Below are positions 1 through 6,297 of a stretch of DNA of 64,000 nucleotides, in pieces. Both the position numbers and the translations under genes were made by a program. The notes beneath the pieces are model-generated. The model had not been told where the DNA came from and made no database searches. It worked only from the letters and a program-made list of their open reading frames with translations. Each line of letters starts with the position of its first letter. Within the stretch, counting starts at the first letter, position 1. This DNA is from Bacteroidota bacterium (GTDB lineage Bacteria; Bacteroidota; Bacteroidia; Chitinophagales; LD1): NCBI GenBank assembly GCA_018267385.1, contig JAFDYN010000010.1:186001-250000 (forward strand). The letters run 5' to 3'.

Positions 1-820
1 TGGGTACTTTGAAGGTGTTTTCATCTTTGATACGCCCGGTGATCAGCTCGCGACCCGGATCATTGAGTGTAGAGTCCGGATAGAGGCCACTGCTTTTGTA
101 TGACTCATCCGTGAAAAGCGGCTCTCTGTGGCACTTGGCGCATTTCTCACGAAAGATGATCAGCCCGTTAAATTCAAACTGTGTGAGCGTATCCTCATGC
201 CGTATGAATTTATCATAGCGTGAGTTGGCAGAGACCATCAGCCCCGTGAACTGTGTCATAGCCTTCAGCATGCGCTCAGAGGAGATGAGTGTATCACCGA
301 ATGCTTCTTTAAATGCTTCGCGGTACAAAGGACTGCGCCGGAGCTTGCGTATCACATCGCCTATCTCAGAGGCCATTTCTATCGGATTGGCCATAGGCGT
401 CAGTGGCTGTACCTCCAGGTGATTGACTCCGCCATCCCACATAAATGACTGACTCCAGGCCAGGTTTTGCAGTGGGGGGACGTTGCGTTTGCCTATCAGG
501 CCGTTGATGCCGTGACTGAGTGTGTGATCTATATGGGCAAATGCCGCTATACGCTGATGACAGGAGGCACAGCTGGTGCTACTGTCTTTGGACAGGATAG
601 GATCATAGAATAATCTCCGGCCCAGTGTGAATCCTGCTGGTGTAGGTTTGTTATTGGCAAAAGTGTAGGTAGGCGCAGGGAAGCCTTTGGGTACTTCAAA
701 CTGCACATCCTTTTCTGTAATGATGAAATACGGATTGGTCTCTGTGAAATTGCTCAAGAGCAAAACCAGGCATACCAGCGTCAGGCCTATCGTGATCTTT
801 TTAATGCGTATAGCTGACAT
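1..820 (-). CDS. Di-haem cytochrome c peroxidase, MbnH/MauG-like (partial)
   Basis: Exported c-type di-haem enzyme of the CCP/MauG family; the C-terminus lies beyond the window. An N-terminal hydrophobic segment (about residues 8-23) directs export. Two haem-attachment motifs are visible, CASCH (near nt 550-565) and CAKCH (near nt 130-145), with the family's WDGG segment between them. Its start ATG (818-820) lies inside the last codons of the upstream MbnP-like gene, a 20-nt overlap implying translational coupling. In methanobactin loci MbnH is a di-haem partner that oxidises a tryptophan of MbnP to kynurenine, so the same pairing is inferred here. A plain hydrogen-peroxide-reducing CCP is the alternative; the missing C-terminal half would help decide. 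Confidence 0.85.
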   Translation of the reverse strand, partial: MSAIRIKKITIGLTLVCLVLLLSNFTETNPYFIITEKDVQFEVPKGFPAPTYTFANNKPTPAGFTLGRRLFYDPILSKDSSTSCASCHQRIAAFAHIDHTLSHGINGLIGKRNVPPLQNLAWSQSFMWDGGVNHLEVQPLTPMANPIEMASEIGDVIRKLRRSPLYREAFKEAFGDTLISSERMLKAMTQFTGLMVSANSRYDKFIRHEDTLTQFEFNGLIIFREKCAKCHREPLFTDESYKSSGLYPDSTLNDPGRELITGRIKDENTFKVP

Positions 821-1592
821 AATATAGCGAAAACATGTGCTGGTAGCGGTCCGCTATCATGGCAGCATTATGATGATCTGTGACTGAATTGTATCTGGCA
901 ATGTCCAATGGCTTAGGTCCATCCATCATTTTAGCGATATCTGCAGCTATATGTATGGTTTTGATCTCAGGTGACGATTTGGTATTGCTTCCCATCCCCT
1001 TCTCTACCTGGTCAGGTACATCCCCACCGCCCGGAGATATATCCAATGAAACGAAGCGAATACAATTAGCCGGTGCCTTATATCCGCCTATGTGATACTC
1101 GTAGATGCCGCCCGGATTTTTTGAGGCATTCGATTTGCCCTCCAGTTTAAAGAAGATATATCCAGTATTCCACGTCCAGAACATCCCGTTCACCGGATCC
1201 AGTGCGTCGCTTTGGGCTCCGTTACAGTTGTGCAGGCTGTCTACCCCTATCGTAAACGTCACCCTGGTGTAGTGGCCCGCAGGAATATTTGGCAGCGATA
1301 TATTCATGGTAGCGGTATCATCTTCGCGCAGCAGATAGTAGCCGGAGTCTGTCATTTCCTGCCCTGACGCGGTGGTCAGCCGGATATTGCTGATATAGTA
1401 TTTCAGGTTGGATACGGTATAGCTTTGCCCCAGCCCATTTTTATAAGTAGCATTGTCCAGTATGATGGGTTTTCCATTCACCATATTCTGAAAGTGTAAC
1501 TGCAATGATTGCGCTACTCCGCTAAAAGACATCACCACAGCGAGTGCTGTGGTGAGCCAGATGGTTTTAGGTATTTGTACTGTCCGGCACAT
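801..1592 (-). CDS. MbnP-family copper-binding protein
   Basis: Predicted periplasmic or surface copper protein of the MbnP ('metallo-mystery pair') family, 263 residues. A signal peptide covers about residues 8-28, ending near VAQS. The family core is clear: NLKYYISNIRL (62-72), then the conserved aromatic motif NGMFWTWNTGY (135-145) with W139 and W141, then H167 in YEYHIGGY and H214 in KTIHI. In characterised MbnP proteins a tryptophan is converted to kynurenine by the di-haem partner and contributes to copper binding. The partner gene overlaps this one by 20 nt and the YHYH gene ends 12 nt upstream, so all three are probably co-transcribed. The copper role is inferred from the family; which Trp is modified cannot be read from sequence. 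Confidence 0.85.
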   Translation of the reverse strand: MCRTVQIPKTIWLTTALAVVMSFSGVAQSLQLHFQNMVNGKPIILDNATYKNGLGQSYTVSNLKYYISNIRLTTASGQEMTDSGYYLLREDDTATMNISLPNIPAGHYTRVTFTIGVDSLHNCNGAQSDALDPVNGMFWTWNTGYIFFKLEGKSNASKNPGGIYEYHIGGYKAPANCIRFVSLDISPGGGDVPDQVEKGMGSNTKSSPEIKTIHIAADIAKMMDGPKPLDIARYNSVTDHHNAAMIADRYQHMFSLYYVSYTH

Positions 1593-1604
1593 GGCCCGAA
1601 GATA

Positions 1605-2885
1605 TTAATTTGCTTTCACGATCTTTTTGATCACATCCTGACTTCCGTCATTGAGGTGCAGCAGGTAGATGCCTGCGGGATACTGAGTCAGGTTGAGTGT
1701 ATAAGATATACTTGGCTGCATATAGTCTATGGTCTGTATCAGTTGTCCTGTCTCATTATAGAGTTTGCCTGTCACGTTATTGCTGCTCTTGTTATCCATA
1801 TAGATGTAGAAATACCCCGTAGACGGATTAGGCATTATCTCACAGGCCGGTGTTTTCTGCATGTCGTTCACACCAGTAGTGCCGGTATACACGGTGGTAG
1901 CCCCGCTGATCGTATTGTGGCCACCGGGGTTCTGAGGACCGTTGGCTATATTGCCAGACTGCACCACACCGTAGTAGGTGCCTGTAGAGGTGTAGGGATA
2001 GGCCGGCGTCAGTGTAGAGTCCAGCGTCATAAAGTAGGCGTAAGTGCCGTTAGGGTACTCCGGAGTCACGCACCAGCGGCCATTGCGGGAGTCCAGATCG
2101 CCCAGGCCGGCCACATACTCATAGTCCCAGAGCAGACAGCCCATAGGATAGGTAATATTCTGAGTGCCCATAGGGGTGGTGACAGTGTATGTCCGTGTAG
2201 GACTGGGACCGGCAGGCGATGCTGTAGTGCCGTCAGGTTTGGTAGTACGCGTAGTGTCGGTACGGAGCCTGTATGATGAGCGCATACGCTTGATACCGCC
2301 ACCGCCATTGGTATCTGCATAGCCATAGGCACCATATACAGGGTACCCGTCAAACATATAGCCGATGATAGGAGAGTGGTGGGTACTGTCAGTCTGGTCG
2401 TAAAGGCACTTAGGGCTCACATGGTGGTGGTACTCACCGTCCTGCTGTGGGTGCCCTATACAGTTGTCAAAACTGGGATACTCAAAGTAGTAGCCATTGC
2501 GGGACCAGATCGTATTCACATACTGCGCGTCGTCAGCATTGAAGATACTTACCCCATTTGTCAAAACGCCTATGTGGCCCAGGCCTATAGAGGTCAGCGT
2601 ACCGGTGTTAGGCTGCGGGCTGCGTGTGATCTTATAGACGAAGTTTTGATTTTCGGCTACGTTCGGATTATTCCACGGGCCGATGCTATAGCCGGGTATG
2701 CAGGTACAGCTCACATATACGTCTGTGGTAGAGTATTGCACCAGCTCTACGTTAGACGGGATATTGTTGTAGCCACGGTTAGTATTCGTATCGGGATTGA
2801 TGATCCAGGAGGTGATCACCGGAGACAGCTGCGCGTAGCTACAGCTATAGGCCATGATATTGAGAGCGAGGAGGAGTTTTTTCAT
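1605..2885 (-). CDS. YHYH-domain secreted protein with T9SS sorting tail
   Basis: 426-residue secreted protein. Signal peptide at residues 1-18 (ending YAQ). The YHYH domain is recognised by GEYHHHVSP and, about 20 residues later, SPIIGYMFDGYPVYG. The biochemical role of YHYH domains is not established. The last 80 or so residues form a T9SS type A sorting domain (MPNPSTGYFYIY ... YPAGIYLLHL, ending KIVKAN), so export to the outer surface or medium is expected. It sits between a Spy/CpxP-like gene and the MbnP/MbnH pair on the same strand with short gaps, suggesting a role in the same metal-linked system. The His-rich YHYH segment could bind metal; that is inference. Confidence 0.88.
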   Translation of the reverse strand: MKKLLLALNIMAYSCSYAQLSPVITSWIINPDTNTNRGYNNIPSNVELVQYSTTDVYVSCTCIPGYSIGPWNNPNVAENQNFVYKITRSPQPNTGTLTSIGLGHIGVLTNGVSIFNADDAQYVNTIWSRNGYYFEYPSFDNCIGHPQQDGEYHHHVSPKCLYDQTDSTHHSPIIGYMFDGYPVYGAYGYADTNGGGGIKRMRSSYRLRTDTTRTTKPDGTTASPAGPSPTRTYTVTTPMGTQNITYPMGCLLWDYEYVAGLGDLDSRNGRWCVTPEYPNGTYAYFMTLDSTLTPAYPYTSTGTYYGVVQSGNIANGPQNPGGHNTISGATTVYTGTTGVNDMQKTPACEIMPNPSTGYFYIYMDNKSSNNVTGKLYNETGQLIQTIDYMQPSISYTLNLTQYPAGIYLLHLNDGSQDVIKKIVKAN

Positions 2886-2936
2886 GATTTGAAATTTAAT
2901 AAGGGTTTAGTACAATGTGAAACTGTCTTTGAATAA

Positions 2937-3425
2937 TTATGGCCGTCTGTCCGGTGGTCCCTGGCCGCGTGCATTTTTGGCCATGGTCTCTGCTATCATC
3001 TCATCAAATTTTTGCTGCTGCTCCGGAGTGCACATCCTGCGCACCTGTGCCAGGTGGCGGTAGGTGATCTGTTCATTTTCTATCCTCAGCATGGCTATGC
3101 GATGTATGAGCGAGTCTGCATAGGCAGAGGTATCACTGCCCCGCGAGAGGCTGCGGAATAGCTCATCGTGCAGTGTACGCTCCTGTTCTCCTATGCTTCT
3201 CATTGCCGTGTGATGTTCATTACGTAGTTTCTCAAACTCCTCCTGCTGCTTTTGATCAAATTGAAGTTCTTTTAGGACCAATCCACCCGGTCCGTGCCCG
3301 TCACGCGGTCCACGGTCTGCGCCGGGCCTGTAGCCATACCAGATATAGCCGAGTGAGAGTACATTCACGATCACCAGTACCACGACCAGGGTAGTCAGCG
3401 CTCTTATTTTAGGCATTTCACTCAT
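2937..3425 (-). CDS. Spy/CpxP-like periplasmic metal-sensor/resistance protein
   Basis: 162 residues with one N-terminal membrane anchor (about residues 9-28), then a Gly/Pro/Arg-rich linker and a mostly helical charged domain. LQFDQKQQEEFEKLRNEHH and a C-terminal region containing TPEQQQKFDEM resemble the paired helices of the Spy/CpxP/CnrR-type 'heavy-metal resistance' family. Such proteins sense or buffer metals or misfolded protein in the periplasm. It overlaps the upstream putative anti-sigma gene by 8 nt and so is probably translated with it. In CnrYXH-type systems a similar anchored helical protein (CnrX) is the metal sensor acting on the anti-sigma factor; the gene order here fits that layout, but function is inferred. 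Confidence 0.7.
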   Translation of the reverse strand: MSEMPKIRALTTLVVVLVIVNVLSLGYIWYGYRPGADRGPRDGHGPGGLVLKELQFDQKQQEEFEKLRNEHHTAMRSIGEQERTLHDELFRSLSRGSDTSAYADSLIHRIAMLRIENEQITYRHLAQVRRMCTPEQQQKFDEMIAETMAKNARGQGPPDRRP

Positions 3426-3750
3426 TGGTCATCATTTCGCTGCCAAAAAACAAGTCCCCGATATCTGCCTGATGTGAGGTGCCTGACAGCCCAAATAGCG
3501 CCTCCGGTCCGTGTATATGCCCGGTACGCGCACTGCCGGTATCAGGATGACTGGTCAGTGTTGCAATATTCAATGCTATAAGCAGTGCTACAGAAGCCGC
3601 GATACGCCACAGCGTGCCGGTAGAGATGGTCATAGTGACCTGCCTGCCCCCGAGCCTCGCCTCTACACGCGCCACCAGGTCGGGAGCCTTTGCCCGGTTC
3701 ATACTGTCTGCACTATGCAGGGTGGCTTCTATCCATTTTTCCTTATTCAT
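3418..3750 (-). CDS. Putative single-TM anti-sigma factor
   Basis: 110 residues: a cytosolic amphipathic N-terminus (about 1-43), one membrane helix (about 46-66, WRIAASVALLIALNIATL) and a short periplasmic tail. There is no zinc-binding HxxxCxxC motif. The call rests on position: it lies 71 nt downstream of an ECF sigma gene and overlaps the following Spy/CpxP-like gene by 8 nt. The size and topology match small CnrY-like anti-sigma proteins, which hold their sigma factor with a short N-terminal segment. It could instead be an unrelated small membrane protein of the operon. Confidence 0.55.
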   Translation of the reverse strand: MNKEKWIEATLHSADSMNRAKAPDLVARVEARLGGRQVTMTISTGTLWRIAASVALLIALNIATLTSHPDTGSARTGHIHGPEALFGLSGTSHQADIGDLFFGSEMMTNE

Positions 3751-3821
3751 GGCCGTATTGTTTGTATAGACGCTATCCGCCAGCCTTTCCTTCGTTTACC
3801 CTTGTTAAAGATTTCCTGAGC

Positions 3822-4397
3822 TTAGTCATGCAGTTCCTTGTAGATATCCTCCAGTGCCCGCCGCAGGTTTTGCTTAGCCCGCTGCAGCAGTGATTCTACA
3901 GCGCCTTCATTGAGCTTCATGATCTCTGCTATCTCCCGCTGGCTCATTTGCTCCACTTTGCTCAGGGTAAAGGCGATCCGCTGGTTTTCGGGCAGGGAGT
4001 CTATAGCGCGGAAGAGATACATCGCTTTCTCCCTGTTTTCTTCTATTACCCCGGGGTGCACCCAGTTTACCGTTTTTGATGCTACCTCTGTATTCTCACC
4101 GCCTATGGAAAAGATAAACCCAAAGCGTTTCTTGCGCGAGCGGGATTTGATCAGGTCCAGTGACTTGGTCACCGTGATACGGTATACCCAGGTAGAGAGA
4201 GCGGCATCACCGCGAAAATTGTCTATTGAGTTCCAAACTGTGAGAAAGACATCCTGGGCCAGCTCCTCGGCATCATTGCTGTCCTTTACAAACGAGATAG
4301 CAGTATTATAGACGCGCTGCTGATACTGCGTGACAAATTCGCGCAGGACCGTGGCATTTTGCTCACGCAGCCCTTTCAGCAGCATCTCCTCAGTCAT
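3822..4397 (-). CDS. ECF-type RNA polymerase sigma factor
   Basis: 191 residues with both expected regions. Region 2 contains DAEELAQDVFLTVW and the -10-recognition helix ALSTWVYRIT. Region 4 carries LPENQRIAFTLSKVE and the helix-turn-helix SQREIAEIMKLNEGAVESLL, ending in RAKQNLRRAL. It is the first gene of the minus-strand metal operon, followed by the putative anti-sigma, Spy/CpxP-like, YHYH, MbnP and MbnH-like genes. It probably transcribes this operon, including itself, when the anti-sigma releases it. The inducing signal is not visible; copper or other envelope metal stress is inferred from its neighbours. Confidence 0.92.
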   Translation of the reverse strand: MTEEMLLKGLREQNATVLREFVTQYQQRVYNTAISFVKDSNDAEELAQDVFLTVWNSIDNFRGDAALSTWVYRITVTKSLDLIKSRSRKKRFGFIFSIGGENTEVASKTVNWVHPGVIEENREKAMYLFRAIDSLPENQRIAFTLSKVEQMSQREIAEIMKLNEGAVESLLQRAKQNLRRALEDIYKELHD

Positions 4398-4524
4398 CTA
4401 TATGTCGCAGTGGTATCTATATGATTTTTTACAGTTTGTCAGTAAGACGATAGAAAATAAGCGATTCCTTCGCCAAGAAAAAAGCAAAATTTTCGGGCTT
4501 GTGACAGCGTTTGTACCTAAACGA

Positions 4525-4548
4525 AAGCCCCGCCGGGGGGCAGGGCTT
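4525..4548 (-). terminator. Hairpin terminator after the hydrolase gene
   Basis: Read on the minus strand, AAGCCC-GCC pairs with GGC-GGGCTT around a C-rich loop, followed by a T-rich stretch. It lies 26 nt beyond the stop of the 4574-6223 gene and separates it from the sigma-factor operon. Confidence 0.6.
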
Positions 4549-4573: not shown

Positions 4574-6223
4574 TTATAAAAGTACAACTTTGCTATGCAG
4601 CTCAGAGCCCGCAGTGGTACGTATGCGGATGATATACACCCCGCGCGCGCGGTCACTCAGGTCTAGTACTGTGGTGCCGCCGGTACCGGCAGCAGCAGAG
4701 AGCAGACTGTGGCCACCTATATCGAGCAGCTCGATAGTGACAGGCTGCTCAGAGGCTTGCGTGTAATCTACAATGATGCGGTCATGTGCAGGATTGGGAT
4801 AGACAGAGATCGAAGCCGTAGCGATGTCATTAATGCCATTGACAAACGAAACACGCACACTGTCTGTACGGCTGCAGTGAGACTGGTCTGTGGTGGTCAC
4901 ATAGTACACGCCGGCTGTGAGTCCGGTGACGGTAGAGGTAGTATCACCATTGCTCCACAGCCAGTGAAACGGTGGATTGCCAAAAGTAGTGGTCACACTG
5001 GCTGTGCCATCAGCGGCGCTGGCCGAGGATGCCTGCGTAGAGGAGGTGTGAGCCACCATAGGCTCAAATATCAAGCCCCTGATAGCAGATATGGCCGCCA
5101 GCGTAGAGAACTGGCCGCAAAGGTTATGATCATAGGTGTCGCCCACGTTCAGCGTGTCTACGGTCACTGAGCCATTGCTCACAAAGTGCGAATAAGCCGC
5201 TGCGGTATGATGCCACGGTATGATCTCATCTGCCGTGCAGAAGAAGAGCTTGATCGGGTTATTGGGCGTCCAGTTATAGGCGTCATTTTTCCTGAGCAGT
5301 TGAGTAAAGTAGTTGTTGGGGTCATTCTGCAGTGTGTCTATGACAGCCTGCTGCAGCACCTGATTAGGCACCGACGGCATCACGCCATTGATCTGAAAAG
5401 CCTCTCTTGAGCCATTGTATTGCGCTGGTAAAACAGTGTCATATGGAGTCACAAAAATATCAGAGTCGCTGGCAGCATAGTGGTAGATGCGGTTGTAGCT
5501 CAGAAAGAGTGCTGCCAGGTATGAAGGATCATTATAGTTATTATTAGACAGGATCATTTCATTTTTCATGGTGCCGCTCAGATCATAGTATCCGGCTATG
5601 GCACCTGCTCCTGTCACGTGTATCTGGGGCAGGTAGGTTTGTATGTATTGATTGGCAGCTACAGTGGCATACGCCCCCTCTGCGATACCGGCCAGAAAGA
5701 GCTGCTGATTGTACGCAGCGCCCATGGTATCTACGGTCTCACGCACTGCGCGTAGCATATCTACTACAGGTGTAGCCTCTGACTGCAGCTGGAGGAAGGG
5801 ATGGTCTCCCGGTCCGCTGCCGAGCCCTAGTCCGTCAGGCAGCATAGTGATGAGCCCCAGTGAGCCACCTGCCAGGCCGATGAACCACTCATATTTGTAA
5901 TTGCTGGGAGCATCATTTCTGCGAAATACATTGTTGTGCTGATAGCTTAGCATAGGTACGTCGCACGGTGTACCCTGTGGCACCACCAGCAGTCCTGAGG
6001 CAGTAGTAGGTGTGCTGTCTGCGGCTACGGTATTATAGATGACTTTATAGGTCTTTACTGGATATACGGTAGTCAGGATGCCTGATGGCACTCCCTGAGC
6101 AGCGAGTATCGAGTCTATCTGTGGTTTGGTAAAGTAATGCTGAAAGATCACCTGTGAGGCAAACTGTGCGTGCGCCACCACGGCAGTGCATAGCACCAGA
6201 AGCAAAGACAAAGATTTTTTCAT
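4574..6223 (-). CDS. Secreted alpha/beta hydrolase-like protein, nucleophile Ser replaced by Ala, T9SS tail
   Basis: 549 residues from the ATG at 6221-6223, chosen because it opens directly on a signal peptide (MKKSLSLLL ... AHAQ). Residues about 60-400 resemble secreted lipase/peptidase-type alpha/beta hydrolases: a strand and loop rich in Gly (GLAGGSLGLITMLPDGLG), an elbow LAGIAEGAYA, an acidic-residue motif CTADEIIPWHH and a late His in DTYDHNLCGQF. The elbow should read GxSxG; here it reads GIAEG, with Ala181 (codon GCA, nt 5681-5683) in place of the catalytic serine. A short Gly/Thr-rich segment and a T9SS domain (VYPNPAHDRIIV ... GVYIIRI) follow. It may be a binding pseudoenzyme, or a one-base loss-of-function change in an active family. 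Confidence 0.8.
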   Translation of the reverse strand: MKKSLSLLLVLCTAVVAHAQFASQVIFQHYFTKPQIDSILAAQGVPSGILTTVYPVKTYKVIYNTVAADSTPTTASGLLVVPQGTPCDVPMLSYQHNNVFRRNDAPSNYKYEWFIGLAGGSLGLITMLPDGLGLGSGPGDHPFLQLQSEATPVVDMLRAVRETVDTMGAAYNQQLFLAGIAEGAYATVAANQYIQTYLPQIHVTGAGAIAGYYDLSGTMKNEMILSNNNYNDPSYLAALFLSYNRIYHYAASDSDIFVTPYDTVLPAQYNGSREAFQINGVMPSVPNQVLQQAVIDTLQNDPNNYFTQLLRKNDAYNWTPNNPIKLFFCTADEIIPWHHTAAAYSHFVSNGSVTVDTLNVGDTYDHNLCGQFSTLAAISAIRGLIFEPMVAHTSSTQASSASAADGTASVTTTFGNPPFHWLWSNGDTTSTVTGLTAGVYYVTTTDQSHCSRTDSVRVSFVNGINDIATASISVYPNPAHDRIIVDYTQASEQPVTIELLDIGGHSLLSAAAGTGGTTVLDLSDRARGVYIIRIRTTAGSELHSKVVLL

Positions 6224-6297
6224 AAACGGGTTGATGTGTAATGTTTCGCCAAAGACGGGCATCCCGTAAAAGTAATGAAAGCAAAGTAAAACCTGTG

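Follow-up and report, generated by a model that had tools for sequence, protein, structure and literature searches.

The main new result of the analysis is that the six-gene operon at the start of the window represents a wider predicted regulon in compact form. The window is the whole stretch of DNA that was analysed, 64,000 nt of contig JAFDYN010000010.1 (assembly GCA_018267385.1, positions 186,001 to 250,000); the part of the operon inside it takes up positions 1-4397, plus the promoter. We regard it as probable that a CnrYXH-like switch drives a regulon of kynurenine-copper and surface copper proteins here. The genes, their conserved order, a common promoter-like motif and conserved active-site residues are established at the level of the sequence. 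The locus contains the following features:

4527..4541, minus strand: terminator-like hairpin closing the upstream gene and bounding the operon (sequence)
4443..4471, minus strand: P1, ECF-type promoter-like site GAAGGAATCGCTTATTTTCTATCGTCTTA, 5' of the sigma gene (motif; same site in congeners L044-L046 and L048)
3822..4397, minus strand: ECF sigma factor, 191 aa (Pfam Sigma70_r2/r4, NCBIfam search; orthologues aligned)
3766..3793, minus strand: P2, ECF-type promoter-like site GAAGGAAAGGCTGGCGGATAGCGTCTAT; the one-TM gene begins 15 nt further on (motif)
3418..3750, minus strand: one-TM protein, 110 aa, predicted anti-sigma factor (position and topology; without a Pfam match)
2937..3425, minus strand: Spy/CpxP/Metal_resist-type protein, 162 aa, with an N-terminal hydrophobic helix; predicted periplasmic sensor (Pfam, alignment)
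1605..2885, minus strand: YHYH-domain protein, 426 aa, with a signal peptide and a T9SS C-terminal sorting domain (Pfam, alignment)
801..1592, minus strand: MbnP-family protein, 263 aa (Pfam, profile and fold search)
1..820, minus strand, extending about 238 nt past window nt 1: MbnH-like di-haem enzyme, 352 aa (Pfam, profile search)

The initial annotation had described six minus-strand ORFs in this order, with overlaps of 8 and 20 nt. All of them were present in the ORF check: the Spy-like and one-TM genes overlap by 8 nt, and the di-haem and mbnP genes by 20 nt. Extension of the locus beyond nt 1, which had been proposed there, gave the complete di-haem gene (352 aa; L003:9762-10820 = G000:C1:185762-186820). 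The gene downstream of it is convergent, and the hairpin at 4541-4527 sits between an upstream T9SS lipase-like gene and the sigma gene; with these two boundaries the operon is self-contained. The lipase-like gene (window 4574-6226) is directly 5' of the operon, and is retained there in several congeners despite the putative terminator. When each protein was searched against Pfam, sigma, Metal_resist, YHYH, MbnP and CCP_MauG were recognised, and the one-TM protein was left without a family. The proposal of a single operon is supported, and that of self-regulation gains support from the ECF-type promoter common to P1 and P2.

Gene order was surveyed in 30 genomes of the family and in 75 distinct loci from public genomes. 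The latter were retrieved by YHYH, so that this sample is tied to YHYH. The order, whose conservation had earlier been left to be checked, is kept in full in the genus and in split or rearranged forms across Bacteroidota, which excludes a chance grouping of these genes. Among the 30 family genomes, the uninterrupted order sigma-TM-Spy-YHYH-MbnP-MbnH was found in three congeneric ones (this genome, G021, and G024). The full order is also present in G025 (L046), with an inserted T9SS multicopper oxidase, redoxin, and arylsulfotransferase-like protein, and in G022, where additional copies of YHYH and one T9SS protein are inserted; the tandem YHYH copies of G022 are at L048:3371-7252. The operon of G026 is cut: the contig stops inside the TM gene. 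Elsewhere, the triad of sigma, one-TM protein and sensor is arranged with YHYH (e.g. G006, G028, and G007), with MbnP-MbnH and without YHYH (G001, G009, and G010), divergently from YHYH (G012, G013, and G015), or in the order triad-MbnP-MbnH-YHYH (G019). Of the 75 public YHYH loci, 27 have MbnP and MbnH within 4 kb and on the same strand. Fusion into one operon, as first proposed, is true of the genus and of some relatives; wider afield the same genes form a dispersed regulon.

Some YHYH loci have further features. Planctomycetota YHYH genes lie beside arylsulfotransferase-like genes in L165 and beside cytochrome-like proteins in L162; an arylsulfotransferase-like gene is also part of the G025 operon (L046). 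The MAG contigs L157 and L126, titled Bifidobacterium breve and Actinomyces viscosus, carry Bacteroidota-type YHYH operons, and these titles look mislabelled. The YHYH operon neighbours in L157 bear T9SS tails.

In the MbnH tree, every YHYH- or triad-linked enzyme falls into one supported clade of 38 rows. The enzyme of this operon is thus separated in the tree from the stand-alone MbnH paralogues that these genomes also encode; the latter make up the 14 rows outside and include that of the second pair of this genome. Four rows of the linked clade are labelled unlinked, among them one cut contig and one divergent arrangement. The second MbnP/MbnH pair, in the stand-alone clade, is located at G000:C19:14236-14931 (L081). 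On the 5' side of stand-alone pairs there is often a gene for a small protein with LCxNRxxPxxHCxGHCYLxKQL, as well as one for an outer-membrane-like protein without a Pfam match.

A specific ECF-type motif, GAAGGAw-N13-15-CGTCtaw, precedes both the sigma gene (P1) and the one-TM gene (P2); the two sites of this operon read GAAGGAA-N14/15-CGTCT. The strict pattern matched 8 times in the genomes of 7 congeners; 7 of these matches are in this locus, and the backward controls gave 0. Across loci, a fixed broader motif was found before 5 of 21 sigma genes, 10 of 22 one-TM genes, and 17 of 99 YHYH genes, against 1 of 930 control ORFs; the Fisher p values (2e-8 to 2e-17) are optimistic, because sites of related orthologues are not independent. 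The sigma gene's own motif (5/21) occurs mainly in this genus. In the same loci the fixed broader motif was found before none of the mbnP, mbnH and spy genes. We infer promoter activity of the motif sites from their sequence.

As a prediction test, 13 genomes with a motif-bearing YHYH gene lacking an adjacent sigma gene were compared with 8 comparators, using E<1e-60 for a sigma orthologue. Such an orthologue was present in 11 of the 13 genomes and in one of the 8 comparators. The two exceptions are assemblies of 1.3 and 2.1 Mb, and weaker sigma relatives are found in three more comparators. One of the 11 sigma loci runs off its contig. In nine of the remaining ten, a one-TM gene and a sensor lie behind sigma, and the one-TM gene carries the motif in seven of these nine; in G041 (L211) no recognisable one-TM protein or sensor was found behind sigma.

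In a gene-blind motif scan of 20 whole genomes, 43 sites were detected, compared with 15 hits in the controls. By our own tally, 36 sites belong to recurrent classes: 14 one-TM genes, one sigma gene, 8 YHYH genes (one of these sites is a repeat on another contig of G038 and lacks a readable ORF), 5 T9SS multicopper oxidases, 2 di-haem enzymes, a T9SS protein of unassigned function (3 copies), and a TPR gene specific to the lists of this genus (3 copies). The motif-bearing T9SS multicopper oxidase operons come from five genomes, and a redoxin-like gene is next in at least four. A multicopper oxidase and a redoxin are also inside or beside the YHYH operons of L046, L135, and L157. In G039 (L215), a short lipoprotein-like YHYH gene has its own motif, and a SCO1/SenC gene follows two genes on.

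The TPR-protein-first operon has the motif at G000:C3:62999-63027 (L258:5001-5028), as well as in congeners L259 and L260, and is possibly a further member of the regulon. A protein with a NAGFETWA/NSFETWA start has the motif on its 5' side in L266, L264, and L227, with a T9SS tail in L266. For genus g2, a less strict form of the promoter (GMAAGKWWW...CGTCWAA) was discarded: it gave 16 matches against 34 backward-control hits, in other words no excess. GCAAG-type sites before sigma and YHYH in G001, G009, and G010 are only suggestive.

The MbnP protein scored 184.3 bits with Pfam PF20243 (gathering score 27) and 55.8 bits with NCBIfam TIGR04052, below the equivalog cut-off of 140. In the alignment of 55 sequences, Met137, Trp139 (the first W of WxW) and His167 are invariant, and Trp141 is kept in 53. 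The rest of the protein diverges: mean identity is low while these M/W/H positions stay invariant. In the profile alignment, the copper-site residues match M-A-W-N-W...H of M. trichosporium MbnP (PDB 7l6g). This structure was also the sole PDB match of the predicted model (pLDDT 83) at E<0.001, with a Foldseek E of 7e-9 and TM of 0.50-0.59. The single-sequence PDB search gave nothing meaningful, and 7l6g was reached by profile and fold search alone. In methanobactin loci, MbnH oxidises a Trp of MbnP to kynurenine for copper binding. In the 7l6g work, the Cu(I) site of MbnP reportedly uses Met and His and borders on the kynurenine into which MbnH converts the first Trp. Trp139 is predicted to be converted to kynurenine in the same way, and the present MbnP to bind copper.

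The di-haem enzyme matches Pfam CCP_MauG with 161 bits. Its haem motifs are CASCH and CAKCH, and both CxxCH are kept in all 52 sequences. Tyr300 is also invariant (52/52); the same sixth-ligand column is occupied by Met in N. europaea CCP (1iqc) and by Tyr in MbnH (6e1c). MauG/BthA are distinguished from canonical peroxidases by having Tyr-His rather than Met-His ligation (PMC6405878). The reading as a canonical bacterial cytochrome c peroxidase with a Met-His high-potential haem was rejected on account of Tyr300. Single-sequence phmmer ranked 1iqc first, whereas the profile search ranked 6e1c first among PDB entries, at 252.7 versus 219.5 bits and over the full length. The score with NCBIfam TIGR04039 was 206 bits against a cut-off of 362.85, and this was still the best-scoring NCBIfam model.

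With regard to the identities assigned earlier, a genuine pair of the MbnP/MbnH type with conserved copper-site residues is supported; both proteins score below the NCBIfam equivalog cut-offs, and they therefore represent a sister subfamily rather than an orthologue set. They share with the methanobactin-locus pair (TIGR04052/TIGR04039; 7l6g, 6e1c) the adjacent genes, the MbnP fold, the WxW with Met and His, and the Tyr in place of Met in the di-haem enzyme. They differ from it in falling below both cut-offs, in having no methanobactin synthase, and in being linked to YHYH and an ECF switch. The synthase MbnB was not found in any of the 30 family genomes, which agrees with the earlier statement that no methanobactin peptide gene is seen in the visible part, and the reading as a methanobactin locus was rejected. 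In methanotrophs, CorA/CorB and MopE/SACCP likewise pair a kynurenine-containing Cu(I) protein with a di-haem peroxidase-like enzyme and are copper-regulated, but their copper protein is a different one and has two His ligands instead of Met/His (PMC3912023).

The YHYH domain scored 150.6 bits in Pfam, and the T9SS tail described earlier was confirmed as a type A sorting domain (Por_Secre_tail PF18962, 45.2 bits; TIGR04183, 36.2 bits). In the alignment, His145, His153, His155, and His170 are nearly invariant. PDB sequence matches of this protein were confined to the T9SS-tail end. Since its AlphaFold model was of low confidence (pLDDT 51), no fold is claimed.

The one-TM protein has a short N-terminal part and a single hydrophobic helix around residues 50-66, and its gene sits between those of sigma and the sensor in the aligned loci. 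It matched no family in Pfam and no known anti-sigma model in Pfam or NCBIfam; it is predicted to be an anti-sigma factor. The sensor matches Metal_resist (38.9 bits; cut-off 29.2) and also LTXXQ. Its Cys132 is invariant in 22 of 22 sequences and belongs to an LTxxQ-like motif; no His or Met position is invariant in the alignment, nor is a metal site like that of CnrX conserved. Metal sensing, as inferred earlier, is at most a candidate function: the Spy-like protein belongs to Metal_resist, but its invariant residue is Cys132 and not His or Met. A thiol/redox or misfolding signal is therefore possible.

The CnrYXH layout consists of the sigma factor CnrH, the anti-sigma factor CnrY, and the sensor CnrX (PMC7689651), and CnrY is a class II anti-sigma factor (PMC7406223). 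The present locus resembles CnrYXH of Cupriavidus metallidurans in having an ECF sigma factor, a short one-TM protein, and a membrane-anchored protein of the Metal_resist family. In contrast, the gene order is different, there is no efflux pump, and an invariant Cys is present instead of an invariant His/Met site. The one-TM protein fits CnrY in topology and position, without a family match; the likeness is one of layout. CorE of Myxococcus xanthus is also an ECF sigma factor, controlling a multicopper oxidase gene; it senses copper by its own C-terminal Cys-rich domain and has no known anti-sigma factor (PMC3107203). The 191-aa sigma factor of this operon has no Cys anywhere, hence no Cys-rich domain, and a CorE-type copper sigma was rejected.

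The locus might instead be an envelope redox or misfolding stress regulon. The Spy/CpxP-like protein would sense misfolded or oxidised envelope proteins via its invariant Cys, the di-haem enzyme, redoxin and multicopper oxidase would be anti-oxidant outputs, and MbnP would be incidental. The LTXXQ/CpxP matches of the sensor, the position of its Cys in the LTxxQ-like motif, and the redoxins accompanying motif-driven multicopper oxidases fit such a regulon. However, the copper-site residues of MbnP are invariant amid a divergent remainder, MbnP and MbnH remain together in the mapped loci, and the multicopper oxidases and the SCO1 protein point to copper. We consider this explanation unlikely.

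Sensing of nickel, cobalt or zinc as in CnrYXH, with a divalent metal as the signal and a metal other than copper handled by the Mbn pair and YHYH, seems quite improbable: neither the operon nor the stretch immediately after the motif sites that were read showed a recognisable efflux pump gene, the sensor has no conserved CnrX-type Met/His site, and the outputs are copper-protein families. The combination of a Metal_resist sensor, a short one-TM protein and an ECF sigma factor does correspond to that layout (PMC7689651). An ordinary cytochrome c peroxidase next to an unrelated surface protein MbnP, in a loose T9SS/secretion cluster, would account for the phmmer ranking of 1iqc and for the scores under the MbnH/MbnP cut-offs. 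It is made highly improbable by the full-length profile match to 6e1c, the invariant Tyr in place of Met, and the pairing with an MbnP whose M/W/H are invariant.

In the CnrYXH-like switch that we favour, the one-TM protein, a putative anti-sigma factor that is CnrY-like in layout, would hold the ECF sigma factor and would itself be linked to the Spy/Metal_resist protein in the membrane, whose place in the layout is that of CnrX. The sigma factor would be freed by a signal in the periplasm, for which copper or redox stress connected with copper is the most likely candidate, and would then transcribe its own operon from P1 and P2. MbnH would oxidise Trp139 of MbnP to kynurenine, and Met137, His167 and the kynurenine would form the Cu(I) site. 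The YHYH protein would be exported by the T9SS as a further output. In relatives, the same promoter would drive YHYH-MbnP-MbnH operons elsewhere in the genome, as well as operons of T9SS multicopper oxidase and redoxin. It should be mentioned that CorA/MopE-type proteins are induced by low copper, and multicopper oxidases usually by high copper.

A broader reading is put forward tentatively, as possible rather than probable. A dedicated Bacteroidota ECF regulon with one motif might build a surface copper machine, made up of MbnH-made kynurenine-type Cu sites in MbnP, T9SS multicopper oxidases, and the T9SS YHYH protein, which might bind metal itself or be another client of MbnH; sensing might occur via the invariant Cys of the Spy-like sensor and not via a CnrX-like site. 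The open-access literature, to which the search was confined, gave no account of YHYH with copper, of MbnP in Bacteroidota, or of a Bacteroidota copper ECF regulon.

The widespread and unexplained non-methanobactin MbnP/MbnH pairs would thereby be placed in a regulatory setting, and concrete partners would be available for the uncharacterised YHYH family. With the promoter motif, the regulon can be recognised in the genome sequences of many Bacteroidota, which opens both the signal and the function of YHYH to direct tests. Kynurenine copper sites are suggested to occur well beyond methanotrophs.
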